NCBI GenBank assembly: GCA_010405405.1
Contig: MU004241.1
Coordinates: forward strand, 186,001 to 250,000
Length of the DNA stretch: 64,000 nt
Origin: Microthyrium microscopicum
Taxonomy: Eukaryota; Ascomycota; Dothideomycetes; Microthyriales; Microthyriaceae
Direction: 5' to 3'
Shown: piece by piece, positions 5,306 to 51,537 of the stretch
Position numbering within the stretch: the stretch's first letter is position 1
Layout: the number at the start of each line of letters is the position of its first letter
Position numbers and translations under genes: made by a program
The notes under the pieces: model-generated
What the model was told of the DNA's origin: nothing
Seen by the model: the letters and a program-made list of their open reading frames with translations, nothing else
The model's database searches: none

Positions 5306-5920
5306 ATACGGTGTGTGTATGCGTGGAAGATACAATCAACAGCTTAGTCTCTAGGAGCCAAAGTCCAATGCGAAATTTCCAATGAATATCTGCAATCAAA
5401 TCCAGGCCTAGATCTGTAAAACAATCTTTATGTCTTCTCCATCCTATACCTGTATTTCAATCCGATAATAGCTCATGATTCGCACGCCTTAGCAATCCCT
5501 CGAGGCAGATACCGCCCAGAATAACAACACACTCATCTCAAGCACACTTAAGCCTACCGTAGCATTATCGACAAGGCAGTCAGGTGAGCAAACAAACCTG
5601 CGTACACCCGCAGACGGATGTACCTTACCGCCCCGGATTCGCACAACGAGGACAGACCAAATACTCAAACTACGGGTGAACAAATAGATGACCCGTAGAT
5701 TGGGCAAGCGGCTAACCTACCGTTTCTGTGCCACTCCAAGTCTCACTAATAGGATGCGTATTCGCAGATAAACAAAATCTGCCTCGTAGAAATGTTCAGC
5801 CTTGCCAAGAGATCTTGACAAGTAGATGGTTTAGCGCAGTGGAGTTTCCATACCAAACGCTTTTCAGCGCGAACACCCGACAGCAGCTGTTTGCAATGGA
5901 TATGTCTGGACCTGGTGGAT
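5306..5920. other. Intergenic between regulator and transposon
   Basis: No gene is supported. Two overlapping frames of about 70 codons on opposite strands near 5728-5955 have no recognisable features and run up to the transposon edge. Composition is that of ordinary host DNA right up to the insertion point. Confidence 0.5.
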
Positions 5921-5928
5921 ATAGAGAG
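5921..5928. repeat. Target-site duplication, left copy
   Basis: ATAGAGAG lies directly outside the left terminal inverted repeat. An identical copy follows the right terminal repeat at 13522-13529. An 8-bp duplication is diagnostic of hAT-superfamily insertion. Confidence 0.9.
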
Positions 5929-5950
5929 CAAGGTTGCTAAACTAATTAGT
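5929..5950 (+). repeat. hAT terminal inverted repeat, left
   Basis: A 22-bp sequence beginning CAAGGTTGCTAAACTAATTA. It is identical to the reverse complement of 13500-13521 and is directly preceded by the 8-bp target duplication. Confidence 0.95.
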
Positions 5951-6112
5951 AGCAAAACTAGTCTAGTCTAGTAAACTAGTCGCGTGACTAGTATAGTATT
6001 ATACTATACTAGTCATGTGACTAGTATAGTATAGTACTAGTTTAGAAAAATTTAATAACTAGTTAGTACTAGTATAAAATATTAAACTAGTTAACTAGTA
6101 TAGTATAATAGT
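5951..6112. repeat. Left subterminal CTAGT-rich array
   Basis: A dense series of CTAGT/ACTAGT palindromic motifs and short TATAGTATA palindromes lies just inside the left terminal repeat and runs into the assembly gap. A matching array lies inside the right end. In hAT elements, subterminal repeats commonly serve as transposase binding sites; that role is inferred here. Confidence 0.8.
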
Positions 6113-6717
6113 NNNNNNNNNNNNNNNNNNNNNNNNNNNNNNNNNNNNNNNNNNNNNNNNNNNNNNNNNNNNNNNNNNNNNNNNNNNNNNNNNNNNNNNN
6201 NNNNNNNNNNNNNNNNNNNNNNNNNNNNNNNNNNNNNNNNNNNNNNNNNNNNNNNNNNNNNNNNNNNNNNNNNNNNNNNNNNNNNNNNNNNNNNNNNNNN
6301 NNNNNNNNNNNNNNNNNNNNNNNNNNNNNNNNNNNNNNNNNNNNNNNNNNNNNNNNNNNNNNNNNNNNNNNNNNNNNNNNNNNNNNNNNNNNNNNNNNNN
6401 NNNNNNNNNNNNNNNNNNNNNNNNNNNNNNNNNNNNNNNNNNNNNNNNNNNNNNNNNNNNNNNNNNNNNNNNNNNNNNNNNNNNNNNNNNNNNNNNNNNN
6501 NNNNNNNNNNNNNNNNNNNNNNNNNNNNNNNNNNNNNNNNNNNNNNNNNNNNNNNNNNNNNNNNNNNNNNNNNNNNNNNNNNNNNNNNNNNNNNNNNNNN
6601 NNNNNNNNNNNNNNNNNNNNNNNNNNNNNNNNNNNNNNNNNNNNNNNNNNNNNNNNNNNNNNNNNNNNNNNNNNNNNNNNNNNNNNNNNNNNNNNNNNNN
6701 NNNNNNNNNNNNNNNNN
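6113..6717. other. Assembly gap (605 N)
   Basis: Unresolved bases inside the transposon, directly after the palindrome-rich left subterminal array. The gap is probably a collapse of self-complementary or AT-rich sequence. The true length is unknown, so the element length is provisional. Confidence 0.99.
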
Positions 6718-6721
6718 TTGT

Positions 6722-7145
6722 ATTTAGTTTCTATAATATAAAATAATATATAGAAAACTACTTTATAAAATATAATATTATCTAGTAGGAGATAAGATAT
6801 ATAATAGGTATTACTATAATACTACTTACTAGGAAATACTCTAGAGATTCTTATTATATAAATATATTAATATTATATAATCTACTAATAATATTTTAAT
6901 AAAAATATAAAGTAATAAATATATAATAAATAAATTTAATATCTTTTATTATAACTATAATAGAAAAGTAGTCTTTATAGTTTTTTATAAGATTTATATA
7001 TCGTTATAACGCTTAAGAGTAGCTCTATAACCTTATAGAAGTTTAAAGTCTTATTTATATCTAATTTCTATATAATAAAATAATATATAAAAAAGTTACT
7101 TTTATAAATATATTAAGATCTAGAAGGAGATAAGATATATATTAT
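6722..7145. repeat. Diverged direct repeat pair inside the hAT element
   Basis: A block of about 90-95 bp near 6722-6812 recurs near 7052-7145. Both copies carry the order TTTCTATA, AATAATATATA and AGGAGATAAGATATATA. A further shared motif (TATATATCGTTATAA) occurs near 6997 and 7143. The copies differ by scattered substitutions. They may be subterminal repeats of the element. Confidence 0.6.
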
Positions 7146-7270
7146 ATATCGTTATAATGAGAAAAAATTACTCTATTTTATAGGCAAAAAAATGATTAAT
7201 TACATAAGCATTAGAATTCTAAAAACAAACTACGGAAAGAAAATAACTAAAATTTCAACTAAGACATAAA

Positions 7271-8430
7271 CTAATTATCTTCTGAAGCTATATCTAGCTC
7301 TTCATCCTCAACATAAGTTAAATTAGAGGAATTACTAGGAGTAGGGCTAGAAGCAGCCAAATCTAGCGCTTTAAGCTCTTTTATTTTCTATATTAAATTA
7401 GTATATAAAAGTAATATTATTAATAAAAACTAACCTTCTAAAAGCCTCGTTTGAGCTCTTTCTCTGCTCGTCGTTCTTCCTTAATCTTCTTATAAGTTTC
7501 TAGTAGCTGTTAGTATCTAATTCGACGTGACTTAGCAGAAGCTTCTTATAATTCAATAAGGTGTTTTAGGTTAGATTTATAAGTTTTTTAAACCTAATCT
7601 TTACTACTATAAAAGGTTAGTATAAGTTAGAAATAAAAGAATGAATATAACTTACCTAGAAGCTATTTTGCTAGTTTTAAAAGCAGTTTCAGTCCAATCT
7701 GCTTATAATCCTTTCTAATTAATTACTAGATTTAGTGAAGTTAATAATTTGGTTTTATATCTACGTAATGACCAAATAGCAATAGGCCTATATATAATAG
7801 GAATAGTAGTTTCCTTGCTATTATATAAAAACACAGCTTTATAGTCTACTTCCTTAATTTCTAAGACGAAGTAAACTATAAAAGATTTAACGTTTCTACC
7901 TTCTAAAAGGGGTAAGAAATTAAGATATACACGTTGAAGATTATATTCTTAACGGATATAAACCAAATACCTAAATTCCTATCTTCTAGCCTATTCTTGC
8001 TTTAAAATAAACAAGTTATATTATAATTTATTATTCGAAAGAAGGGCGTTTCCATAGCTAAGAAATTCATTTATAAAACGTTATAGTTTAACTCATGGAT
8101 CGTATTGAGGGCAAGGGTTAGTTTGAGGCACTATATATTATATTAGTATAATATAATAAGAACAAGGTTATAACTTACTTTTGGCTAAAAGAACAAGAGA
8201 AGTATAACTAAAATAAAAAGTTAGAAAAAAAATAAAGTTTAAAAATAAAAGATAACTTACCTAAAAAGGCTAGATAAGACTAGGCAAAGAGACTATTAAA
8301 TAGAGAAAAATTTAGCGAGTTAAATAATATAGAATACTAGTACTAACTAGTAGTAGCCTAGTGTTAGAGACTAGAAAGAAGAAAGTTAAAAAAAAAAAAA
8401 AAAAAAAAAAAAAGGTAATAATACTTACTA
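7271..8430 (-). pseudogene. Second gene of the hAT element, RIP-mutated, unknown function
   Basis: Minus-strand coding relic. The last exon ends at a TAG at 7271-7273 after an acidic tail (VEDEELDIASEDN). The next exon upstream gives a basic, probably helical stretch (YKKIKEERRAEKELKRG). Before that, a longer frame at about 7656-8130 includes RVYLNFLPLLEGRNVKSF and DWTETAFKTSKIAS. Splice signals survive: donors at about 7436, 7655, 8178, 8260 and 8428, each matched to an AG acceptor (about 7390, 7607, 8131, 8208 and 8371), giving introns of about 47-58 bp. In-frame stops sit where Gln or Trp codons are expected, as RIP would leave. I do not recognise the family, and it does not look like a transposase. 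The 5' end is not located and may lie beyond 8430. Confidence 0.55.
8387..8413. repeat. Poly-A tract inside the element
   Basis: A run of about 27 A residues. On the minus strand it is a poly-T tract inside an intron of the second gene relic. No target duplication or element boundary accompanies it, so it is not evidence of a retroposed insertion. Confidence 0.8.
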
Positions 8431-8582
8431 TAGAAAGTAGAGAAGTATTAAATAAAAAGATAAAAGAGGCTAAGTCTAGAAGGTATAAAGAGCACTAGTA
8501 CACAATAGTACTAAAATGTAAAGTAGTAGTAATAGGTAGAAAGTGTAGTAATTGTTTAAAATTCAAAGATTATTAAGGGAAA

Positions 8583-8885
8583 CTTAATATACTTATATTC
8601 TTTTAATACAAGATTTATGCGCTAAAGATACTATTGTAACCGCCGTGATTTAGGCTTTAAAACGCATATCGTTTCAACTAGTTTAGACGCGTAATATGAA
8701 AGTTATTAATAGAAATAGATAGGGCGCGTAAATATTTCACTAAGCGCCCTATCTAGTTCTATTAATAACTTTCACATTACGCGCCCAAACTAGTTAAAAC
8801 GATATACGTTTTAAAGCCTAAATTATGGCGGTTACAACAGTATCTTTAGCGCGTAGATTCTATATTAAAAGAACATAAGTATATT
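8583..8885. repeat. Long palindrome (about 143-bp arms, 16-bp loop)
   Basis: The left arm (about 8583-8727) and right arm (about 8744-8885) are near-perfect reverse complements, separated by a 16-base AT-rich spacer at 8728-8743. Matching landmarks are AGGGCGC/GCGCCCT at the centre, the AGTTATTAATAGAA region, the TTAAAACG region and TATTCTTTTAATA/TATTAAAAGAACATA at the outer ends. Most arm differences are C/T or G/A, as expected if RIP hit the two arms separately. It lies between the two oppositely transcribed genes of the element. It could be a nested foldback or MITE-like insertion, although no target duplication is evident, or a part of the element itself. Confidence 0.88.
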
Positions 8886-9576
8886 GGGTAAACCTATTAG
8901 AATTCTTACTTATCTTAGATCTTAATTAATTACTTTGCTTACACTACTTTAAATTGCACTATTACCTACTTATAGCTTACCTATATCCCCCCTTGTTATT
9001 AAAATTCACTATATATATTTTAATCTATTGCCAAAAATCACTTTTATTTTTTTACTTTTTTAAATATTTTATTATATATAGACCTTTGTCACACAATATA
9101 ATACTATATTCTTCTCTTTAAAGAATTAGCTTTTATAGTCCATAGCTTTTATTACTTTTGCTCTGGTTAGCATTAGTTTATTTAGCTTTTAGAAATAATT
9201 AGACTTTAAGTTTAGATTTTATACTTTTAAATTTCTAAGCTTTTAAACTAGTTACTATAACATTAGTTATTATTCTAGGCTCTTCTTATTAAATACAGAA
9301 TAGCTTAGTTATTTTACTTCTATTACTATATTCTTCTTTAGCTCTATAGTTTATAAATCGTTTAAAAAAATAGAAAAATCTTTATTTATTAAAAAACATT
9401 AATTATTTATTATATCTCTATTCTTTATCTTATTTAAGACTTAAAAATTAAGTTCTAGAATTTAGATAGTATACTCTATATAACTCTTAAGTTAGTCTTA
9501 CTTATTCTAGTTTTTTTTCTATTATATTAAAGACTTTATATTTATTTAAATAGTTTATATAATAGCTAACCATAAT

Positions 9577-11901
9577 ATGCTAAATTCTAGCTTTAATGAT
9601 AGCCAGATATCTAATACTGAGTCTATTAGGCCTCAGGATAGTGTATCTAATATTTCTACTACTGCTTCTCTTAGTTAGCAAAAGTATAATAAACCATACT
9701 TTAGGCTAGACGATAATAATTCTAATGCTTATTCAATTATAAAGGGGCTTATTAAAAGGGAATTACTTCCTATTAATATTACTAAGCCTAGACAGGTTAA
9801 AATTATATGTACTCTTTATTCTTATAGTTAGATAAGGGATCTAGAAGGTTTCCAAACCTCTAATTTTGTAGCACATTATAGAGCTAAACATAAAACTATT
9901 GCTACTAAAGAAGAGCAAGAAATTAATAAAGAAACTGTAAGAGAATACTAAGCTAGAATTAAAGCTAATAGTAATAATCCTAGTAATTCTTTTACTATAT
10001 CTATAGTTAGTAATAAACAAGCTAGAGCTAATACTAGATTAGATTTTAATTTAGATACTGCTTTACATTTAATAGTTAAATTTATAGTTAAAAATAACTT
10101 ATCTTTTAACTTATGTAGCTCTAATTCTTTTAAAGAACTCCTAAAGTATTATAATCGTTATAGTCCTTAAATTAATCGTAATAAGCTTCAAGATCTTCTT
10201 TATTCTAATTATAATAAAGCAAAAGATAAGCTAAAACGTGAATTAAAGGCAATAGTTTCTAGAAATAATTATTTTGCTATAGCTTTAGACGTATAGACAT
10301 CTAATAGTAATCAGCATGCCTTTTTAGGTATAATAATTATATATGCTAATAGCAACGTTAAGTTACAGTATAGATTACTAGGATTTGAAAGATTAACTAC
10401 TAATCACACTAGAAAATATCTTTATAGTATATTTAAAAGTATTATTAAGTCTTTTGACTTAGATATTAGTTATTTTATTAGTTTTTTACAAGATAATGCT
10501 AGTAATAACGATATATTAATTACTCAGCTAAGAACTAAAAAGAATCTAATAGGTTCTACTAAGGATTTCTATAATATTCGTTATACTGCACATATTATTA
10601 ATTTAGTTGCTAAAGCTATTATTAGACACTTTGTAGCTAATTATAATAAGGAAATTAAGACCACTAGAACTAGAGCTAGTCTTATTAGTCAATATACTAC
10701 TTCTGCTTAATTAGATGCTATTTTAGATACTATAGCTTCTAAGAGTCTAATAGGTAGACTTAAAAAGGTAGTTCACGCTATTAAATTCAAGTAAGAACAT
10801 TAAAAGAACTTTAAATTATCTAGAAAGTTATATCTTAAAAGAGGAATACTAGACAAAGATATTAAAATAACTAAAATACCTATAGATAATAATACTAGAT
10901 AGAATTCTACGTATTATACTCTAAATTATCTTTTTAAACTTAAACCTTGTGTTAAATACATCTTTACTAATACTAAAGATAAAAAGTTTAAGAAGTTTAT
11001 ATTTAATGAAGCTAATTAGCTAGCATTAAAGCATTTAAAAAATATTCTAGGCTATTTTGAAACGCCTACCGTTATTTTACAAGGGCAGATTTATACTATA
11101 GTTAATCAAACGCTTTTACATATTTATTAATTATTTAGAAATTTAGAAGATCAAATGCTTGAATTTTCTATATCTCTTAATTCTATTATATTAGAAGATT
11201 ATCCTAAGCGTAAATACTTTATTAATGCTATTAAGAAAGGCCTTAATAAGCTAGAAGAATACTATCCTCGTAAAATTATAAATTAAGAAGTAGTAGAAAA
11301 TCTAAAGCCTTTTATTATAGCTTTAATTTTAGATCCTAGATATAAAACAATACACTTTACAAATAATCCTCGTAGCTTATTATTTCACTATCCTCAGATT
11401 TTAACAGACGTTACTAATTTATTTAAAGAAGAGTATAATTTAGCTAAAATAAAACTAAATCCTACTTCTTTAAATCAAGAAAGTAGTAATTTAGATCCTA
11501 TTTTAGACAATAATGAAAACACGTTTTTTATTCCTATTACTAACAATAATACTACTACTACTAAAGAAGAGTATATTCATTATTTAGAACAAGAACGTAC
11601 GCATCCTAAAAAACATCCTTTAGATTACTAGGTTAAAAACCAAAATCAATTTCCTATTCTATTTCATTTAGCTAAAAAATACTTAATAATACCTAGCACT
11701 TCTGCTAGTACTAAAAGTATATTTAGTATTAGAGCAGATATTATTTCAAATAATAGAAATAAACTACTAGCAGAGACTAGTAAAAGGATTATTTAGCTTA
11801 AAAACTAGAAATTAGCAGATATTAATAAGTTTAAAAAATCATTATTATATAAATCTAGAGATGAGGATAGTAGTGAAAGTAAGGTAGAGAGTAATTATTA
11901 A
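9577..11901 (+). pseudogene. hAT transposase relic, RIP-inactivated
   Basis: One frame of 774 codons runs from an ATG at 9577 to a stop at 11899-11901, with no frameshift that I could find. About fifteen internal TAG/TAA stops interrupt it. They fall at Trp or Gln positions; for example the expected DVWTS reads DV-stop-TS near 10290, and TRWNSTYY reads TR-stop-NSTYY near 10900. hAT landmarks follow in order: an N-terminal region, TSNSNQHAFLG, LLGFERLTTNHT, the DNASNN catalytic-core motif near 10495-10512, TLNYLFKLKP, and the C-terminal dimerisation region (FHLAKKYLIIPSTSAS...IISNNRNKLL) near 11660-11770. The length fits complete fungal hAT transposases. The stops match RIP (CAR to TAR, TGG to TAG), so the protein cannot be made as it stands. 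Confidence 0.93.
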
Positions 11902-12551
11902 TGTAGTAGAGTTAGTTAGGTTTATCTTTTAGGCGTTAGGGAGTTATAGGTATTAGTTTAAATAGAAAATATAAAAAGATTAGTTAAAACTAAAGTATTA
12001 TTATTAAAAGTAAAAATAAGAATAAGTTTATTAAGTATTAGAGTATAGAGTAGTAGTATAGATTTAAGTTTTGTAGTATATAGATTATTTAATATAATAT
12101 AGTAAAAGTAGTTAAAACCCTAATATAAAGAACTTATAAATTTATATATTAATTTAAAGATTTACGTTTAACTTTTGATAGATATTAATACTTATAGCTA
12201 ATTATATTACATTAAAATTTAAGAATCTACTACCTATATTTATTCTTTATAAATTGTATATTAAATAATAGCTTATCTTACTCTAATAAGTAAGTTAATT
12301 ATAAAAGTTTAAAAGACGTATTTAAAATATAACTAGTAATACGTATATATTTAAGAAAGATAAGTTAGGTTATTAGATAGAGTAGGCTTAAAGGTATATA
12401 ATAATATATAGTATAGTTTATAAATATTTAGTTTTAGTAGTTATATAAATAGTTTCAAAATAATAATAAAAGATAGTTTAAAGTTTTACTATATAAAGTA
12501 GTATTTTATATTTTGAATTTAGATTTAAATTAGATAGTAGATATATAGAAA

Positions 12552-12591
12552 ATTCTATATCATTATATAGCCCTAAAATAGCTCTATATAA
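12552..12591. repeat. Short inverted repeat inside the hAT element
   Basis: CTATATCATTATATAG and CTATATAATGATATAG form a 16-bp inverted pair separated by a few bases. It is the clearest small hairpin in the AT-rich 3' part of the element. Given the base composition it may be incidental. Confidence 0.5.
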
Positions 12592-13314
12592 TGATATAGG
12601 TTTTATATCTTAAGTATTACAACTCTTAGTAGCATTTAAAATACTTTTAAATAATAAAATATTTTTTTAAATAGTAAATAAGCTTAGATAAGACAAAATA
12701 GATATATAGTTTTATATAGAATATCTATATACTTATTATATAACTAAAATTTATCTAAAAAACTATAATTAAAAGACTTATTTCTACTATTTACTTACTT
12801 TATTATTATAAATATTAATCTTTAGTACTAATATATTTAATATCTTTTTATTACGTAAGTATTATATAAAACTAATACTCTAAGTATACTCGTTACATTA
12901 TAACGAATCAAAATATATATAGGTTTACTTAAAAATAGCTATTTTTAATATAACTAAGTTAAATATAGTATTTTAGTTAACTTTATTCTTTTTATCTATT
13001 ATATTTATGTTCTTAATTCCTAATTATTTGTATTAAAACCTAAAATAATTATATTTAGTCCTAATTCTTTTTGTATTCTATTAGGCATAATTCTAGGAGG
13101 CTATACTTAAAAAACAAGTACTTAAAATTAAAAACTAACTACTCTAGTAATTATTTAAGCTTTATTTTTTAATAAAAAAAAAAGCTCTAACTTTAAAGTT
13201 AAATAACTCTAGAACTAGTTAACGCCTATTAAAACGAAATACACTATTGTATTCTACGTAAAATACTGAATCGAATAATGTATTTTTTAGCCTATAATAT
13301 TACCTAATCTATTT

Positions 13315-13499
13315 ATAAAACTAGTATAGAACTAGTACTAGTATACTAGTAGTATACTATAGTACTAGTCTAATTAGTATTATAAAATACTAGACTAGTA
13401 TAGTACTAGTACTAGTACTGGAGTATTCCTAGACTAACTAGTACTAGTAGCTACTTTTAATACTAGATACTAGTCCTACTAGTACTAGTACTAGACTAT
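13315..13499. repeat. Right subterminal CTAGT-rich array
   Basis: Repeated ACTAGT/CTAGTACTAGT motifs lie just inside the right terminal repeat and mirror the left array at 5951-6112. Possible transposase binding sites by analogy with other hAT elements. Confidence 0.8.
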
Positions 13500-13521
13500 A
13501 CTAATTAGTTTAGCAACCTTG
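13500..13521 (-). repeat. hAT terminal inverted repeat, right
   Basis: The exact reverse complement of 5929-5950, ending TTTAGCAACCTTG, followed directly by the 8-bp target duplication. Confidence 0.95.
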
Positions 13522-13529
13522 ATAGAGAG
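13522..13529. repeat. Target-site duplication, right copy
   Basis: ATAGAGAG, identical to 5921-5928. Host composition resumes at once after it. Confidence 0.9.
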
Positions 13530-16378
13530 TGGTCTAGAATTTACTCCGCCTAGTAAAGTATTAACGCGCCAAGCGCCGCGGAAACTAGATTGTTGACATC
13601 GTGATACTAAAGTGCTGTTGGTGAGGCCTCATATAACCTTTCAAGCAGCACAAGAGATGTCACTCCGTCGCACCAGCCACAAGACCGCGTGCTCGTAGTA
13701 CTGTAGGAAATGATTTGTATGGTTTCGGTGCCTCGGAACTAGATTGCACCCGTGAGGCAGTGCTGGAATAGACTTTCCTGATATAGTATGTTCACGAGCT
13801 GATGTTAAGGACTGGTTGGTGTAGAGGTTGGAAAAAGCTCAGGGTCCAGTACAGACGAAACAGGGAAACAAGTTTGGTGTTTGTGGCAAGGGGGATAAAG
13901 GGTTGTAGTTGAAAAAGTCTTGGTGTACTAAGCCAAGGGGTTCCAGATGCGGCAGTTGGTGAGGGAGCTGCTGGATTTGTCCACTTTTGGCGGCAAAATT
14001 GGAGGCGCAGCGATGTTGAGCTTGTACAAGGAAGCTGAGAGGCCAGTCAGTATTGTTTTCGGGCAGCGCCGAATAGATTTCTTGGTTGCGTTCAAGATAG
14101 GGGAAAACTTGGAATTTGGAGATAGCCTTGGTGTTGAGGTCGAGTTTAAAGGCATCGCAATTGACAAATAAGGCAAAATTTGGAGGCTTGCAAGCGCAAC
14201 GTCGATTTTTAGACGCCACGGCGTTTTGAGGCTCAGGATGCGTTTCACAATTGCAGCCAATGGGCCCCTGAGCCTGAGCGCAAGGTGGAATTCAATGTTT
14301 CGATTTCTTTTTCTGACAAGCGCCAATTCTTTTGCTAAGCGATGAAACGGTTTGCTGTCACGTCTGTGGAAAAATATTAGAAGCGCAAGCTGTCATGGAA
14401 GACAAAAAGCAAATGCCGCTCTGTCGTCTGTCATGTTGCACTTTGCATTCTTTTTGATTTCAAGATTTGTTAATCGCTGTGGCAAGGCCAAGAGCCAAGT
14501 GCGCGATATTGGCGATTGGAGTGCTGGGCAAGTGTCATAGCAAATGCAGAAGAATGGTCACAGTCGCATGGGCGGCTAGAGCTTTGTGGATTTGTAGCTT
14601 AGCAGTCGTACGGGCCAAGGTACCAAGTATTTTCCAAGGCCTTTGGAAAGTGTATTTGCAACTTGTTTTGTAGAGAAGAATGTCGGTTTATAACTTTATT
14701 TTGCATCTTGTGATTGTCGTTGACGATGCCCAGGGCCGGCTGGGTCAACGGGTAGCTGAGAAGTAGCGCAGGGATGTAGAGCAGATCACATTGAAGTGGA
14801 AGCTGGTTGGCGATTGACATGGTGTGTTGTCTGATAGCAATCCCCGGGACTGGCGCGTGTCTATATTTTGTTTAGGAAAGTGACGGGTTCGCGTAGGACT
14901 GATAGATGAGAGATACTTGGCGCAATAAATAAAGCAATGGAAGACCACGCGTTCGATCAATCGATGGCCAGAGTAGAGATCGCGTTGGCATCTTGATATT
15001 AGGGGAGCTAAGACCAGGAACGCTGGGCACTGGGCACGCAGGCGTAGGCACTGGTAAAGTTAGTGTATGGTTAGAGAAGGAAGTAGCTTTAAAGATTAGT
15101 GGTGAGGCAGAAATGTGTTTTCAATTGACGCAGGGAGAGAGGCTCTCAGAAGCTGTTGACAAACGAAACATATGAAAGAAACATGTTCTGTTGAGTGTTG
15201 GCTGTATTTGATGTTTGAAGGTAGCGGAGGATCTAGGAGTTATGCACGACATGTGTAATCTGGAGGAGGTCGCGATGTTTTATGAAGTCTTGGAAGATGG
15301 TGGTGAGGAAGTTGTATGTACTCTGTCAAGCTGTATGTATTGATTCAATTTGATATCCAAGGCATTCTTGCCTCTTGTAGTGGGTCGATGGGCGACTATT
15401 GGCCCCTGTTCAGTGTTTGCTGGTAAGGAAGGCGCACTTGGTATTTCAGGCCCAACAGGAAAGTGCGATACTGGTCTAAGCCTCCTTTTGCCAAGAGGAC
15501 CTACCAACGTACCTTCCCAGAATCGTAGATTGAATCAAATGCTGCGTGCCGCGCTTTCCTCACGTTTTCACTCTGTAATGCTGCATCCATCTGACCTCAC
15601 CATCGCCTTCTCTTCTTCCAATTCTTTTCTACTCCTCATAGACGGCTTCGTTCTCTTCTTATAACCATCTTAATTCTCCCGTCTCTTCTCTACTCTCAAT
15701 CACCTCCCCTGCACCACCAGAACACCCATATCCCTGCATCTCCAACTCATACAGAATCTCTCCTATGACCTCCTGCTACACCTCAATTCCAGAGGCTAGA
15801 TAGACATGCTACTTCGCTTACCTTCTCCTTCTTCATAACCTTGCGCCAAGCTGCACTGCCTCAACTTGCGCAACCTGCTCTCTCCATCCATTGTTCGCCT
15901 GAAGCATACGAATTAACTGCTCGAATCCGCCTCCTACACGCTGGACCTTTCACTTGGCCTATCAGCCTTGCCCCTTCACCAGCCTACTTGTACTTGGGAC
16001 CGCAATCCAATAATTGTCCGCCAGCAACAATAACTGTTCTCAAGCCCCAACCGCTGACTGGTAGCCTCACCACTTCCTCTTCTGGTCAACCAAATTACCA
16101 ACATTCGATTGGTTAACCTGCTGCGGCACACATTCGACACATCCGACTCAGCTTTCTTTCCAAAATCTCCCTCAGGTTGTCTCACCGGTCGTCATATTGA
16201 TCAGGCTGCCTTCAAATCGCGTTTCTTTTATCTGAGCCCATTAGGCTGAGTTTAGAAGATAGGACGCCTTGAAACCAGATCACAACTACCACAGACGATC
16301 CACCGGATGCCACTTTGTTGACTACCTTTGGAATTTCGTATTTAACGTTGCCTTTCTTGGTAACAACACTTGATTCAC
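13530..16378. other. Long gene-free stretch and pyrimidine-rich leader upstream of the Ca2+-ATPase
   Basis: No convincing gene. Open frames of 126 and 132 codons on the minus strand near 13839-14326 overlap each other in different frames and lack domain features. From about 15590 to 16378 the + strand is rich in C and T, with CTCTTCTCTACTC-like runs, as in promoters and 5' leaders of highly expressed fungal genes. That part probably holds the promoter and 5' untranslated region of the ATPase. Confidence 0.45.
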
Positions 16379-30597: not shown

Positions 30598-31164
30598 CTA
30601 TGGCTTCCGATATTCTCTGATGGCGGTGGTGTACGCGGTTGTAATACTGGGAACCCACGTGTAGGATCCTACTCCACTGTTGAAGAAGTTTTCTTGATCC
30701 AGAATTGCTTGAACGAAGCCCGCTGCTTCTGCTTGTAGTAGTGTAATGCTGTCAATGACAGCGTTGTGAGCACCGACATAGACTGCCGCCTTCTTGTTCT
30801 TGGTCCAGGTGGTCGCAGCAGTGGAGATGCTGTTTACTATGCTGGTGACAGGTAGGACGATGGAAAGGGCTTGTGCTTCGTATATTCCTTTTACTTGTTT
30901 GATTTCTCCGGTTCCGGCTCGAAGCTCATCGATCAAGATTTTGTTCGCATTCAAAGAGTTCTGGAAGTATGTTGTAGCAGAGCTGCCATCGTTTCCGGGG
31001 CCTACTGCTAGGACTTTGTTGAGGTTGTTGACAGCTGCTGTTACGCGGTCAATGTTGTATTGCACTGGGTCCCGTCTTGCTTGTCGAGACTCTATGTTTG
31101 CTGGTATGGCTGTCGCAATAGTGCAAGCCGCGAGGCTGAACAAGGAAAGTAAAGAAAGCTTCAT
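30598..31164 (-). CDS. hsbA: Secreted HsbA-like (hydrophobic surface-binding) protein
   Basis: A single exon encoding 188 residues. The first 20 or so residues (MKLSLLSLFSLAACTIATAI) are a clear signal peptide, followed by a short propeptide ending ESRQARR. The remainder is a mostly helical, cysteine-free domain (NIDRVTAAVNNLNKV, NANKILIDELRAGTGEIK, ITLLQAEAAGF) of the HsbA/cell-wall galactomannoprotein family. The Aspergillus founder binds hydrophobic surfaces and helps recruit cutinase-type enzymes. The length matches the family. The gene stands alone, with a TATA-like TTTTATACG about 120 bp upstream of the start. Confidence in the family is good; the specific surface or partner cannot be read from sequence. 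Confidence 0.85.
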   Translation of the reverse strand: MKLSLLSLFSLAACTIATAIPANIESRQARRDPVQYNIDRVTAAVNNLNKVLAVGPGNDGSSATTYFQNSLNANKILIDELRAGTGEIKQVKGIYEAQALSIVLPVTSIVNSISTAATTWTKNKKAAVYVGAHNAVIDSITLLQAEAAGFVQAILDQENFFNSGVGSYTWVPSITTAYTTAIREYRKP

Positions 31165-31516
31165 ATTGTATGAGATCTGAGTTAGGCACTCGACGAACCT
31201 AAAATCAGATCAACGCTGGTTTTCATTAGGTAGAAACAGATTTGTAAACTTACTGACGGTAAAGACTGTGGAAGATAGAAACGTATAAAACTTGTGGCTA
31301 ATGTTCCTACCTTGGTGGACCGAGAAGATTTCTTATATGAAAGTATCTCCGACGGGGGCCAAACAGCGGCAAAGGGAAAACGCTGATATAGACCAGGTTA
31401 TGCCCAGTTTCGTATCGGGAGCAGCATAGTTTATTGCGTCTTGAGCATGGTAATTTCCTGTCAATCAAGCCCATGTCAATACGCATCCTTTAACCGACCG
31501 GTTCATTCCATTACTA
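31165..31516. other. Promoter region of the HsbA-like gene
   Basis: No gene. Contains the TATA-like motif and presumed leader of the HsbA-like gene. Ends at the TA target dinucleotide of a MITE. Confidence 0.5.
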
Positions 31517-41061: not shown

Positions 41062-42907
41062 CTACAGCCTTGCCTTGCCATCCGCCATTGCTGCCTCTTC
41101 CTTCTTGACCAGAGCTCGCAGGTCTTTTCGCAGAATCTTGCCTGATGGCGACTTTGGGATAGCATCAAGATAGACGACGCCACCGCGGAGCTGTTTGTGT
41201 GAAGACATTTTGTCCTTCACAAACTGTTTCACTCTATCAGGCGTCATCCTGTTCTTGTCAGCAACGACATAGGCGCGCGGCGCTTCGGTACCCTCCCATT
41301 CAACACCAATGACAGCAGCATCTGCAATCTCGGGGTGTGACAGCAATAGTCCTTCGAGCTCTGCAGGAGCCACCTGCATTCCCTTGTACTTAATGAGTTC
41401 TTTCTTTCTGTCCACGATGAAGAGCAATCCGTCTTTGAAGCATCCAACATCGCCTGTCTTGAACCAGCCATCGCGATCGAATGTTTCGGCCGTCGCTCCA
41501 GGATTCTTATGGTATGAGTTGAAGATTACTGGACCCTTGAGATAGATCTCGCCTTCCTCCCCTGGCCCAACATCTTGTCCCTGTTCGTCGACAATTCTAC
41601 GCGCAATCAGAACTTCTCGTGTATGGAATTGACCATTGCTCACCTAGCAGACATATTGGGAAGCAATCGACTGACGCTTCCCAGCTCATCTTTCTCATCC
41701 ACATTCAGCAACGTGGTGCTACCAGTGCTTTCACTCAAACCCCAGGTTTGCATGATGAACACCTTGCCCTTGCCGAACTTCTTTGAGGCAGCTTCCTGTA
41801 GCTCTTTCTTCATGGGCGCTGCTCCAGAATACGCAACCCGCAAATGGTCAAATTGATCGGTAACTTCTGGCGTCTTCGCTATGAGCAGATAGATTGGAGG
41901 CACGGTGAAGAATATTGATATCTTATACCGTCGATTATACTCGAGGAATTTGAGAAAGTCGAATTTTGGCATCCAATAAGTTGTTCCACCCATGAACACT
42001 GGATTAACAAAATAGCCTTGCATGCCTGCAATATGCGCCACAGGTAAATGCGCGAGCGTCGTGTATTTGAAGTTGGGCTCTTTGGCGAAGATCTGTTCCC
42101 GTTGCATCTGACATGAGATGAATACTTCTGCGACCATGTTCATATGAGAAAGAGTTACACCTAAGGCACTTGTCAGCACAAGGACAAGTCTATTAGCATT
42201 GGCTAAGGACCTTTTGGCAGTCCAGTGGTACCAGAGGAGTATATCAGACAGCTCGGCGTCGACTCCAGCTCTTTCTGGGAAGTGATTCTTTTCCAGTCTA
42301 GCATCTCCGATGTCAAAACATCCTTTCCGGTTGCACTCTCCCTCAATGCAACATTTGGAGCATCGATTAGCAGTAGTCGGTCTGCCGGGATGCCACACTC
42401 TTTCGCCGCAGCTATCACCACATCCTTCGTATCTTCATTATAAATTACAACATCGCTGGGAGCACCCTTGATCAGACGAACAAGCTCATCCACAGTTGAG
42501 CTTGAACTAACAGAGGAAAAGATTCCACCTGCTGCCAATACACCATAGAACATGGTTGGCATGACATAGCTTCCACTGGCGATACATGTCACGTAACTTG
42601 GCTCTGTGCCTGCACCGACGCCATATCTGTGACGCAGGGAATGCGCGACTCTCTTCGTCAGATCTCGAGTTTCTGCCTTGGTCAACTTCAAGTTGGGATT
42701 TTCTGCATCGACGTGTAGAGGTTGTTGTTCTATTGCTGTTGAGTGCTTCGATTCTAGAAGATCTTAGCATCTTTACTTTGCCTTCAAAGCGATTGTGGAC
42801 CAACCAAAGAGCAGTGTCAAGATGTCGAGTTTCGGTATGTCATAGGTAGTGTTACATCGGTATATGATCGAAGAGCCATCCCTTATGGTTTCAGTCTGGA
42901 TGGACAT
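41062..42907 (-). CDS. 4-coumarate-CoA-ligase-like acyl-CoA synthetase, peroxisomal
   Basis: An adenylate-forming enzyme that activates a carboxylic acid to its CoA thioester. Four exons (42907-42805, 42753-42211, 42160-41644, 41596-41062) join in phase to give 565 residues, standard for the family. The start MSIQTETIRDGSSIIYR precedes a family-typical PLHVDAENPNLKLTKAETRDLTKR block. The AMP-binding P-loop is YSSGTTGLPKG near residues 206-216, followed by the LSESTGSTTL region, the adenylate-binding DGWFKTGDVG, the hinge DRKKELIKYKG and the terminal PKSPSGKILRKDL lysine motif. The last three residues are ARL, which fits the peroxisomal PTS1 consensus [SAC][KRH][LM]. The substrate could be a fatty, coumaric or other aromatic acid; sequence alone does not decide. 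All introns are 47-52 bp. Confidence 0.92.
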
Positions 42908-43424: not shown

Positions 43425-45009
43425 TTATCGACCGAGTCCAAGCATGCCCAGCAGTCCACCACTTTTAGCTTTGGCAGCGGCAGCATCCGCAGCAGGATCA
43501 GGTTTGAGAGCCATACTGAAAGCAATAAGGCCCATCTCTTCGGCTTCACCACCTCCAGAAGTACGTCTGTGTTTCGTCAGTTTCTGTTTAGGGCCTTTGT
43601 GTACACATCAGGGGTAACTTACGCTGGATGAGCGTCAAGATCATAGTTTGCCGCCAGAGAAAGGACATCACCTTTCTTTACTGGAATCAACTCGTCACAA
43701 GTGCTCATCTTGTTCAAGGCTGCCCAGGTTCCTTTGGCGTCAGACTTGTCCATGTATGAGGCTTTGGACTCGCAGACCGTCTTGTTGTTGATCATAACAG
43801 GTATACTGACCCCTCCATCGTGTAGATGACCGCGAATACCAAACATGTAGCCGTCTCTTTGGAAAGTCATTCCCTTGCTGGCAACAGAAAACTTCTTCTG
43901 GCCTTTCTCAGGCCGGATACCGATGCTCCCATCACAATTGGTAACACTCAAGTTTTCTGAAGTCACTTCCAATTTGCCTTTACCTGGAAGGTACTCGAAG
44001 TCTACTTTTGCGTAAACCAACTTCTTCTCGTTGGTATAGTTGACGAGTTCCGCTGTGAGGTACATGATATCTCCCTTTGCAACATAGTAGCCGCCGTCGA
44101 AGGTTGGGTCATCTTGAGCATAGAGGTATTTGCCACCATCCTCACCAACTGCTAAGAAGACAGATATTGGGAGGGTGAACTTTGCTTTCTGATTCGGGCA
44201 AGAGACCAGCGCAACTGGTCGCTTAGCAGTATCCGCGAAGACTACGTGGTGATTATAGACTCCAGTGTTGACGTCTGCTGGGGATCCATCTTCGTAGACT
44301 AGACTGACACTGCCTTTTAGTACAGTCATATCACCAGGGAAATTTTCGGCTTGAGTGGCGAATGTCGTGCCTGCAGGGTCCATGCCTTGGAGATTTGAGT
44401 TTGGTGTCTTCTTCCTGTCCTATAGTCATATTGTTTAGTAAGATGTCAATGCCATTGGGAACAGTAGTCATACCGCGGCAGTTACGACGTCGAATGGTCC
44501 ATACCAAAGTTGCATCCTCTTCACTCCCGGTCTCTTCATTGTAGCTTCTGCTGCCATCGTTTTCGCTAGCCTCGTCTTCTCCATGTATCCTATGGACATT
44601 TGAAGGAGTGCTGGGGTTGCTTCTGACTGTAACATGTAATCGATAAGTCCTGGGGGAGAATCAGATGGGTTCTCAAAGAGCAGCATGCTTCAGATCAGTA
44701 TGCGCGCAGTACATAAACTGTTGTGCTATGATTCTTGCCCATATCAGAGATAAAACACTGACTTACCTCCAGACATTCCGCTGGTCATGCCACCCATTCC
44801 TCCCATACCACCCATTTCGCCTCCACCTGGGCTTTTAGCATCCTGTGGTTGACCTCCATGGCCTCCATGTTGAGGCTCTCGTCGATCTAGTTTCTGTCAG
44901 TACCAAGTTCAAAACACTTGGAGGAGAAAGGCCACTGACGCAACGTCGGCGAAGCAAAAGCACTCTGAACACCAATAGCCACCGCTGCTAAAAGAATATT
45001 TCGACGCAT
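43425..45009 (-). CDS. Secreted SURNod19-like protein
   Basis: Five proposed exons (45009-44940, 44886-44763, 44687-44474, 44419-43623, 43566-43425) give 448 residues in consistent phases. The second intron needs a GTCAGT donor three bases inside a better-looking GTAAGT, so that junction is less certain. The N-terminus is a signal peptide (MRRNILLAAVAIGVQSAFAS). Then comes a Gly/Met-rich linker with repeated MGG units near residues 43-57. The main domain matches what I recall of the stress up-regulated Nod19 family: GSVSLVYEDGSPADVNTGVYNHHVV, VSCPNQKAKF, GGYYVAKGDIMYLTAELVNY and YMFGIRGHLHDGGVS with conserved His residues. The C-terminus is Ala/Gly-rich. Function of the fungal members is unknown. 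The paired His motifs hint at metal binding, and I see no transmembrane segment apart from the signal. Confidence 0.65.
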
Positions 45010-47753: not shown

Positions 47754-48600
47754 ATGAAGTTCTCTCTCCTTGCTCTATCAGCTGCCAGCCTTGCTGTCGC
47801 TGCTCCAACGTAAGCTTCAGAATTTTGGAATGGATGTCAGTAGCTAACTGTTTGGAAGTATTCTTGCTGAGCGTCAAGTGCCAGCAACACCAGCCCCTGG
47901 AAGCCCGGAAAGCTTCCAACAAGCCAGCTCAATCATCGGCGGACTCGCTAAGGGCCTCGGAGGATCTCCCGGCGGTGCGGGTATTGGAAGTATTCTTCAA
48001 GGCCTTGCCGATGGCATTGGTGCAGCTGGAAAATCTGGCAAATCCGCCATTGTCGCCCGTCAAGTTCCGGCCACACCAGCCCCAGGAAGCCCAGAAAGCT
48101 TCAAACAAGCCAGCTCAATCATAGGTGGACTTGCAAAGGGCTTAGGAGGAGCGCCAGGCGGCGCTGGTATTGGAAGCATTCTTCAAGGCCTTGCCGATGG
48201 CATCGGTCAAGCTGGCAAATCCGCCATCGTTGCCCGTCAAGTTCCTGCCACACCCGCTCCAGGAAGCCCAGAGAGTTTCAAACAAGCATCTTCAATCATA
48301 GGCGGTCTAGCAAAAGGTGTATCGGGCTCTTCCATCATCCCTGGGGGCGCTGAGATTGGAAAATTGCTTCAAGGTATCGCTGATGGTTTGGCACAGGGAG
48401 CTACAACAGGCAAATCCAACATCGTGGCACGTCAAGCTCCAGCAGGCAGCCCAGAGAGCTTCGCGCAAGCAAGTTCAATCATTGGAGGGCTTGCAAAGGG
48501 AGTTTCTGGCTCTACCCTCATTCCAGGAGGCTCTCAAATTGGAAGCATGCTTCAAGGAATTGCTGATGGTCTGTCGCAAGCAGGCAAGGGCGCTCACTAA
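47754..48600 (+). CDS. Secreted protein of four tandem peptide repeats
   Basis: Exons 47754-47809 and 47859-48600 give 265 residues. Exon 1 encodes a signal peptide (MKFSLLALSAASLAVAAP). A short propeptide ending LAER leads into four repeats of 62, 59, 65 and 55 residues, starting at 47875, 48061, 48238 and 48433. Each starts with Q(V/A)PA and contains GSPESF-QASSIIGGLAKG, a Gly-rich linker, and an amphipathic IG-LLQGIADGL-type helix. Units 1-3 end in GKS-IVAR, so every junction reads ER|Q or AR|Q. There are no cysteines. This layout resembles fungal precursors cut by Kex2-like or other Arg-directed proteases into several related peptides, each able to form an N-terminal pyroglutamate. It also fits a cohesive Gly/Ala-rich surface protein. 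The cut sites are monobasic, which is weak for Kex2. Family unknown to me. Confidence 0.85.
47875..48597 (+). repeat. In-frame tandem repeat array (four units)
   Basis: Units at 47875-48060, 48061-48237, 48238-48432 and 48433-48597. Units 1 and 2 are the closest pair. Units 3 and 4 share the VSGS-IIPGG-type linker instead of LGG-PGGAG. This suggests growth by stepwise duplication of pairs. Confidence 0.9.
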
Positions 48601-49523: not shown

Positions 49524-51537
49524 ATGTCTTCACCCAATCAGCCGGTCGCTGGTTTAGAAAGCAATGAAGTTACAGCAGCAGGGTCATTGACCGTTTCCGA
49601 CCCACCCCCCGGGCTCAAGAAATCACGAGCGAGTAAACCCAAATCAAAGAATGGTTGCTTGACATGCAAGTAAGCTCTTTGATGGAAAACCACCAATCAT
49701 TAAAGCAACTAACGTAGACAGAAAACGCAGAATAAAGTGTGATGAACGCATGCCAGAGTGTGTGAGGTTAGTATTCAGCAACCATAGTCGCCTTCCTTTT
49801 CATAACCTTTTCATAAAGTACTAAGCCTGGTTCAGATGTCTGGGCATGGGACTTCGCTGCGCCGGATATGGCATACCTTCAAGATCAGCAAAACCTCGCT
49901 ACAAGACTAACCAATCTCCGGGATCGCCATGTTCTCCTTTACCTCTAATGAGACTCTCTTCAAGTTTCCCAGTGAGGAACTCTCTGGAATCACGCGCTAT
50001 TGAACTACTACTCACAACGATCTCGCCTAGGCTGGGTTACTCTTATCGTTCTTTTTGGATCAAGGAAATGTTCCAGGTCGGATATCAAGAACCTGCAGTA
50101 CGAGATGCCATGATCTCACTTTCATTATCGTACGAGCATAACAGCATTCAGGAAGGTCTTATGGGCTCCGAGAAGGAACCAGACAAGCACTCAACTCTGC
50201 ACTACTACAACTCCGCAATTCGTTATCTTCACAAACAGCTTCAAGACCCATCGTCCATACGAGTTCCGCTCACCATATGTCTCATATTTGCTTGCATAGA
50301 CTGCATACGGCGCGACAGCGCGGCAGCTCTCAACCACATCAGAGGCGGCGTCCAGCTCTTAGAGCTCTGGCGCAACCGCAACCAAGACAGTGATGTCAAC
50401 GTCAACGGTTCTAGTTTCGAGGCGAGCGAGTTTGCCGCCATCGAGGAAGTAATGGTTCCCATGTTCACCTGGCTCAACATGGTGTCCACAACTTTCGGCG
50501 CGCCCTTGCTCGATCTCTCTACTAGCAAGCACACTGAAGACCCACTGCCCGTCTTCCTCAAAGCAACAGCTCACATGAGCAGCTTCGCCGGCGCCATACA
50601 AAGCATGCTCAACCACGTCGACGTCTCCTTCCGCTTCTTGCGAGCATACGGTTTGACAAAATACGAAGCCACCATAGATCCCTTCATCGCCACGCAACAG
50701 GCTAATCTGCTCGCCAACCTCGACTCCTGGCGCCACGACTTTGACGTCTTCGTCGCAACTGGCGCCGACAAGGCCAACTGTCTTCCCTCCACCGTCGATC
50801 TAATCCTCTCCTCCTGGCTAGCAATCCGCATCTGGCTCGAAAGCTGTCTCGAACCCACCGAATGCGTCTGGGACAAATACAGAACCGAATTCTCACAAAT
50901 TCTCGAACTCGCCGCCAACTCCGTCGACGACACGCAGCGCTTCCCAGACGCGTTGAGCAGAAGCTTCACGTTTGAGCTCGGTTGCATACCCGCCCTGCAA
51001 TTCGTCGCATGGAAATGCCGCTACCCACACATCCGGCGGCGCGCCCTACGTTTGCTACGCCAGTGTCCGCGCCGTGAATGCATCTTCGACAGCCGCTACG
51101 GGACCATGCTATACGAGCGCGTCATGAGCATTGAAGAAGCCTCCTTTGGCCTACGACGCGGCGAATTACCGCTTCCCGATCTCCTGCCACCCGAATCGGC
51201 GCGAGTGCACAATATTGATTTACCACCACTACCAGCAACCCGGCACGGAAAGCCAGTGAACTTTTTGACGAAGCCGCGCGGTCCACTAGGCCCGTGGGAC
51301 GTCAAGGCAGAGTACATGAATCTGAGTGGCTTTGAGCTTTTACAGTGGTATGCTGTGGTGGGACGGGATCGGGAGAAGACGCCAGAGGTGATGCGGATGG
51401 AGGAAGTGACGAGTATACCGACGCCGATCAATATTGATTGGAATACGAGGATTGATACTTCTGGGCCGCCGGTGGGATGGCATGCGATTAACCATGAGGC
51501 TGAGCTGGCGGTGGAGATACCAGTATCTGCTACTTGA
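49524..51537 (+). CDS. Zn2Cys6 transcription factor with fungal-specific domain
   Basis: A nuclear DNA-binding regulator. Three exons (49524-49669, 49722-49766, 49836-51537) in phase give 630 residues. The DNA-binding cluster is split by both introns: NGCLTCK, then KRRIKCDERMPECVR, then CLGMGLRCAGYG. This gives six Cys in C-x2-C-x6-C-x6-C-x2-C-x6-C order, followed by a short basic linker. The long third exon carries the fungal-specific domain of the Fungal_trans_2 type: LSSSFPVRNSLESRAIELLLTT, a YHSFW-like block, RDAMISLSLSYEH, YYNSAIRYLHKQL and LTICLIFACIDCIRRDSAAALNHIRGGVQLLE. Target genes cannot be read from sequence. The neighbouring tandem-repeat secreted gene and Nup159 give no clear pathway hint. 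Confidence 0.93.

Follow-up and report, generated by a model that had tools for sequence, protein, structure and literature searches.

Kexin-processed precursors in fungi

The closest described systems are the fungal Kex2-processed repeat proteins (KEPs) surveyed by Le Marquer et al. 2019 (PMC6339444) and Umemura 2020 (PMC7329392). In the excerpted text of both surveys, they were recognized by an N-terminal signal peptide and by three or more related repeats separated by dibasic sites, KR/RR/KK(/RK). For kexin itself the described preference is Arg at P1, a free P2 with Lys favoured, and Leu or another aliphatic residue at P4, with LxxR as an extended motif (excerpts of PMC8528282). Peptides led by pyro-Gln, together with products apparently cut after a single Arg, are described for KEPs of the mushroom Coprinopsis (PMC9769878, in part). 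In Ustilago maydis, Kex2 cuts one precursor, Rep1, into amphipathic peptides of 35–53 aa that are located on the hyphal surface (passages of PMC4617103 and PMC8528282).

The gene described here, from the leaf-litter dothideomycete Microthyrium microscopicum, encodes a protein that shares with the KEPs its tandem arrangement of units separated by probable protease sites, and its N terminus looks by eye like a signal peptide. It has four related units (76–93% identity to unit 2), its predicted products are Gln-led like some reported KEP peptides (PMC9769878, in part), and the unit length of 55–65 aa falls in the longest size class named in the excerpts of PMC6339444, over 51 aa. Both surveys required dibasic sites, however, and none of the pairs KR, RR, KK or RK occurs in the whole 265-aa precursor. 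Since the dibasic rule fails and the wider LxxR definition of a kexin site fits, the precursor would work like a KEP but is not a member by the survey rule. Judged by its sequence, the most likely reading is a repeat protein that kexin processes at extended monobasic sites, an uncharacterised variant of the KEPs. Should cutting take place there, inventories of the peptides that fungi secrete would be incomplete where they are based on dibasic sites, and this precursor would fail the site rule as excerpted from PMC6339444 and PMC7329392.

With Rep1 the precursor has in common that several amphipathic peptides would come from one protein, a likeness in logic and by description, not one of demonstrated homology. 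The Rep1 peptides form amyloid-like fibrils, whereas an all-helical fold is predicted for the Microthyrium units. The homologue lists, in which most records are unnamed, contain none under the name Rep1 or repellent. The Kex2-processed pro-domain (K2PP) effectors also carry an LxxR kexin site, but there, according to the excerpted part of PMC8528282, it frees one N-terminal pro-domain, whereas the Microthyrium sites would also part repeated units.

Gene structure and repeat organization

The stretch of DNA analysed, hereafter the window, spans 64,000 nucleotides of contig C12 in a 36.9-Mb genome of 20 contigs, and the gene lies at C12:233754–234600. Its spliced product of 265 aa shows 100% identity over 100% of its length to the NCBI hypothetical protein BT63DRAFT_464151. 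Translation starts at the ATG at 47754 and ends at the stop codon 48598–48600. The features of the gene, in window positions, are:

47754..48600, + strand: whole gene, two exons (47754–47809 and 47859–48600), with a spliced product equal to the public gene model
47754..47804, + strand: signal-peptide-like stretch, residues 1–17, read by eye, cleavage point approximate
47805..47874, + strand: short propeptide PTILAER, residues 18–24, with the intron inside, ending at the LAER↓Q site (the arrow marks the putative point of cleavage)
47810..47858, + strand: 49-bp intron splitting the propeptide, with GTAAGC donor, branch-like GCTAAC and AG acceptor
47872..47877, + strand: junction R24↓Q25, LAER↓Q
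47875..48060, + strand: unit 1, 62 aa, ending in IVAR
48058..48063, + strand: junction R86↓Q87, IVAR↓Q, within the low-confidence model segment 82–88
48061..48237, + strand: unit 2, 59 aa, ending in IVAR
48235..48240, + strand: junction R145↓Q146, IVAR↓Q, within the low-confidence model segment 144–148
48238..48432, + strand: unit 3, 65 aa, ending in IVAR
48430..48435, + strand: junction R210↓Q211, IVAR↓Q, within the low-confidence model segment 205–211
48433..48597, + strand: unit 4, 55 aa, extending to the C terminus without a trailing Arg

The N terminus reads by eye as MK, a hydrophobic stretch and AAP, and in the precursor MKFSLLALSAASLAVAA-PTILAER leads on to the four units, which are 62, 59, 65 and 55 aa long. 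The gene for a four-unit precursor with R↓Q junctions is confirmed as real. As the initial annotation had stated, each unit opens with Gln after an Arg (Arg24, Arg86, Arg145 and Arg210) and lacks Cys. These four are the only Arg residues of the precursor, which further contains 13 Lys and no Cys, Tyr or Trp, and in 20,000 shuffles of its sequence four RQ pairs never occurred. The units had been placed directly after the signal peptide; instead a short propeptide intervenes, which itself ends in R↓Q.

The description of the units as near-identical holds for units 1 and 2 (93% identity), but less so for units 3 and 4 (each 76% identical to unit 2). Units 1–3 open with Gln-VPATPAPGSPESF and unit 4 opens with QAPAGSPESF. 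At the DNA level a tandem array is detected at 47872–48314, with a period of 186 and a score of 583. The divergence between units 1 and 2 is 42% at synonymous and 5% at nonsynonymous sites, and dN/dS amounts to 0.08–0.16 in five of the six unit pairs, dS being saturated in the sixth. The units are under purifying selection, and these ratios, together with the high synonymous divergence, indicate that the copies are old and have been kept alike as protein, rather than arising from a fresh duplication.

Paralogues in the genome, a search for which the initial annotation had proposed, did not emerge: the unit query and the P0008 query matched this locus only (4/4 and 3/3 matches, respectively), in searches that disregarded introns and could thus miss a very diverged paralogue. 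The query with P0011, a relative from Venturia, gave the four matches at the locus and two others at E 0.11 (a frame carrying stops) and E 0.24 (by eye an oxidoreductase-like frame), which are taken as chance matches.

Related precursors and their junctions

A family was gathered by three protein searches, each scoring about 8,000 candidates sharing most words. It comprises 27 proteins, the Microthyrium precursor and 26 further database sequences; P0017, being part of P0011, does not enter the counts. The species named as sources are M. microscopicum, Venturia inaequalis (P0011) and V. effusa (P0023), beside metagenomic relatives. What had been called an unfamiliar family is indeed uncharacterised, although it proves to have these relatives in the databases. 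Literature searches under four accession or locus names of the Microthyrium and Venturia members found nothing, and topic searches returned papers on KEPs, kexin and repellents, none of which, judged from the listings, names the family. Umemura's KEP type G-9 includes Venturia (PMC7329392, in part) and may overlap with the Venturia-like relatives.

With a unit profile, 65 units (63 without P0017) and 37 inter-unit linkers were delineated. R↓Q is present in 31 of the linkers, 16 of them dibasic and 15 monobasic. Twelve dibasic sites belong to V. effusa P0023 and its look-alikes P0022 and P0024–P0026 (KR↓Q in three linkers each of P0022, P0024 and P0025), and four to P0006, P0008 (two) and P0009. 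The monobasic sites are found in P0001, P0002, P0003, P0005, P0007, P0010, P0013, P0015 and P0019, and all 15, representing seven different quadruplets, carry Ile, Leu or Met as their P4 residue. Residues from the set L/I/M/V occupy P2 in nine of them, P3 in four, and P5 and P6 in none; at P4 of the dibasic sites the same set accounts for 8/16. The resulting P4 contrast (Fisher p = 0.0024; for distinct sites 7/7 versus 6/13, p = 0.044) is not robust, as it depends on a residue set that was picked after the data had been seen, and the sequences are moreover related. With L/I/V only it becomes 12/15 versus 8/16 (p = 0.14), and with the residues listed in the excerpts of PMC8528282 (Leu, Ile, Val, Ala, Pro) 12/15 versus 10/16 (p = 0.43). 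What stands firm is that R↓Q keeps its place and that P4 is constant in the monobasic sites.

Arginine is distributed unevenly over these proteins, with an Arg:Lys ratio of 28:148 inside units versus 49:42 in linkers. Gln follows 47 of the 104 Arg residues in 26 proteins; 32 of these pairs lie in linkers, 11 precede the first unit detected, three follow the last, and one, in P0026, is located within a unit. Four of the 11 upstream pairs have a non-aliphatic P4, namely SDAR (P0002, P0014), HDNR (P0022) and HNNR (P0025), which may reflect unspliced frames with intron-derived upstream residues. An internal [LIMV]xxR occurs in only 2/63 units, one of these two being the sole unit in which [KR]R is found.

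Six of the 37 linkers, in P0004, P0006, P0011, P0012, P0018 and P0023, lack R↓Q. The single linker of V. inaequalis P0011 is among them, its propeptide site alone being kept, and in V. effusa P0023 one linker of three is affected. In P0004, P0006, P0011, P0012 and P0018 the absent site is the one ahead of the last unit, so that these proteins would release a fused double hairpin; the pattern suggests repeated or inherited production of such a form in the five members. Inter-unit cutting is thus not essential for every family member, and relatives without repeat cleavage, which the initial annotation would have held against its own reading, do occur in part. That one and the same junction can hold KR, LxxR or no site at all constitutes a natural experiment on the evolution of kexin specificity.

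The linkers without R↓Q, and P0011 in particular, fit a structural repeat protein that is left uncut or partly cut, with only the propeptide site in use and a string of hairpins residing in the cell wall. The non-repeat HsbA-like gene in the window, which likewise has R↓Q (NIESR↓Q) after its signal-peptide-like start, is consistent with this. Such a protein is nevertheless unlikely, because it hardly explains why R↓Q recurs in most of the otherwise variable linkers, as KR, RR or [LIM]xxR, while the units contain few Arg. The same recurrence, with KR↓Q and RR↓Q at the place of the monobasic sites, gives good comparative support to the part of the initial interpretation according to which the protein is cut into several related peptides. 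From the site pattern, processing into separate peptides appears probable.

Proposed processing

According to the proposed pathway, removal of the signal peptide would be followed by kexin cuts after Arg at [L/I]xxR↓Q, one freeing the short propeptide and three separating the units, and a carboxypeptidase would trim the trailing Arg from units 1–3. The products would be four related Gln-led peptides of 55–65 aa, possibly with pyroglutamate at their N termini.

The monobasic nature of the sites had been raised as a doubt by the initial annotation. The sites of the precursor are monobasic indeed, but with their aliphatic P4 residues they fit the published extended kexin motif LxxR (PMC8528282, in part), by which the doubt is largely resolved. 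The fit to the lists in the excerpted text of that review is imperfect: Ala at P2 of the three inter-unit sites lies outside the five best non-Lys residues, and Met at P4 (3/15 monobasic family sites) is absent from the aliphatic list. The genome contains one match to P_proprotein, the P domain of kexins, in an 891-codon frame that by eye resembles a kexin with a subtilase domain, a P domain and a C-terminal membrane stretch. Another Arg-directed protease, such as a yapsin-type aspartyl protease, might make the cuts in its place, a variant that overlaps with kexin processing and differs in the enzyme only. Yapsin 2 is called monobasic-specific in the title of a reference within PMC2515848 (in part), and Ala at P2 is not a listed favourite of kexin, yet the dibasic KR↓Q or RR↓Q that takes this position in 16 of the 31 sites, and Ile, Leu or Met at P4 of every monobasic site, point to kexin and make such an enzyme a distinctly improbable choice.

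Pyroglutamate formation has been placed in the ER in N. crassa (PMC5241404, in part) and would thus precede the exposure of Gln by kexin, which renders pyroglutamate on the units uncertain. No match to the plant-type glutaminyl cyclase PF05096 was found in the genome, and the 11 genome matches to M28 (PF04389) are uninformative because the family is broad.

Predicted structure of the units

AlphaFold2 modelling of unit 2 from 35 unit sequences yields two helices, residues 11–29 and 35–58, with a mean pLDDT of 78.5 (68.4–78.5 over five models) and a pTM of 0.59. The model of the full precursor (15 sequences) contains eight helices, with a mean pLDDT of 71.3 (59.5–71.3 over five models) and a pTM of 0.37, at which value the mutual arrangement of the units is not predicted. 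Its pLDDT drops below 50 at residues 1–26, 82–88, 144–148 and 205–211, corresponding to the N terminus and to each of the three junctions between units. Each unit is thus predicted to fold, without Cys, into a hairpin whose two amphipathic helices are rich in Gly and Ala and are connected by a Gly-rich loop. The Gly-rich linker and the amphipathic helix of the initial annotation are both recovered, except that two helices per unit are predicted, with the Gly-rich loop between them, rather than one.

In the family, the helix pattern missed 8 (first helix) and 9 (second helix) of the 63 units. The hydrophobic moment exceeds that of shuffled sequences (p < 0.05) in 31/55 first helices and 51/54 second helices; the amphipathicity of the first helix is not above shuffles in the other 24/55. 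GxxxG motifs are present in 50/55 first helices (13.4 expected) and 47/54 second helices (29.5 expected).

A Foldseek structure search revealed no significant structural relative. Its first row is a designed barrel at E 2.8, and the best sub-threshold matches of unit profile A4 to PDB sequences, at E 0.08 and up, are designed coiled-coil peptides and alpha-helical barrels. Such matches may reflect only a heptad-like composition of Leu, Ile, Ala and Gly.

Candidate function

A single unit peptide would probably not be stable alone; it may rather self-assemble or spread at interfaces and so coat the hyphal surface. A surface-active role is suggested because the units are secreted, Cys-free and near-neutral, have amphipathic helices with faces of small residues, and occur in several copies per precursor, as in Ustilago Rep1. 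By this analogy, and provided that the processing scheme is right, the role is a tentative assignment with a chance somewhat below even. The complete reading, a kexin-processed KEP-type precursor of self-assembling, surface-active hairpin peptides, is favoured very slightly over its being wrong in some part. If surface-active, the units would give a little-studied group of leaf-surface and litter fungi a helical alternative, free of Cys, to hydrophobins and repellents. It is doubtful, though conceivable, that the family stands for a hidden class of precursors, a helical counterpart of the repellents, in which monobasic [L/I/M]xxR↓Q kexin sites release self-assembling helical hairpins that coat hyphae, and in which related lineages switch between LxxR and KR or, where the site is lost, make fused double hairpins.

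Litter fungi live amid competitors, and amphipathic, Gly/Ala-rich helices would also suit membrane-active or antimicrobial peptides directed against them. The predicted mature pieces (45–130 aa, starting with Gln, trailing K/R removed; n = 41) are, however, near neutral, with a mean net charge of +0.76 and 14/41 at zero or below. As that mean is low for cationic antimicrobial peptides, such an activity is improbable.

The initial annotation had left the choice between surface-active and signalling peptides; by analogy the former is more plausible. A signalling or pheromone-type precursor would have the same layout, which is that of the alpha-pheromones (PMC6339444, in part), but units of 55–65 aa with a predicted helical hairpin far exceed the 9–24 aa of the alpha-pheromone class in the excerpts of that survey. 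The XA/XP signature of Ste13 is also inconsistent, position 2 being Val in three units, Ala in one and variable in the relatives, and the units of one precursor differ among themselves, all of which renders a pheromone highly improbable.

Neighbouring genes and the remainder of the window

Other genes scanned in the window are:

30598–31206, − strand: secreted protein of HsbA-like type (PF12296, 30.8 bits at E 4.4e-7, slightly below the cut-off of 33.5), N terminus ...IPANIESR↓Q with an IxxR↓Q propeptide-like site
41062–42434, − strand: AMP-binding enzyme
43619–44419, − strand: SURNod19-like protein (20 bits, below the cut-off of 25)
49846–51534, + strand: Fungal_trans_2 regulator

There is no sign that the peptide gene forms a cluster with its neighbours, the genes for the AMP-binding enzyme, the SURNod19-like protein and the Fungal_trans_2 regulator. 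HsbA proteins (PF12296) are secreted and helical, and the HsbA-like protein resembles the precursor in having its IxxR↓Q after a signal-peptide-like start. The HsbA profile is not among the four Pfam families matched by any of 15 family members at E <= 0.1.

Venturia, a genus that has the unit family, also has Cin3, a secreted repeat protein reported to be a dikaritin precursor (PMC9632046, in part). A dikaritin-type precursor of ribosomal cyclic peptides would likewise be a secreted repeat protein, and the Microthyrium genome contains 23 exon-wise UstYa (DUF3328) matches. Unlike Cin3, however, the Microthyrium gene has no UstYa gene nearby: on this contig the closest match lies about 261 kb off (C12:495633), and the genes scanned around the peptide gene encode an AMP-binding enzyme, a SURNod19-like protein and a Fungal_trans_2 regulator. 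The absence of Tyr and Trp from the precursor and its long, predicted helical units make a dikaritin barely conceivable.

Elsewhere in the window, positions 4001–16000 form an AT-rich block with a GC content of 24–37%, whereas the remaining 4-kb bins have 44–51%. Within this block, the letters at about 6.1–6.7 kb are a run of N, which may be an assembly gap or withheld sequence.
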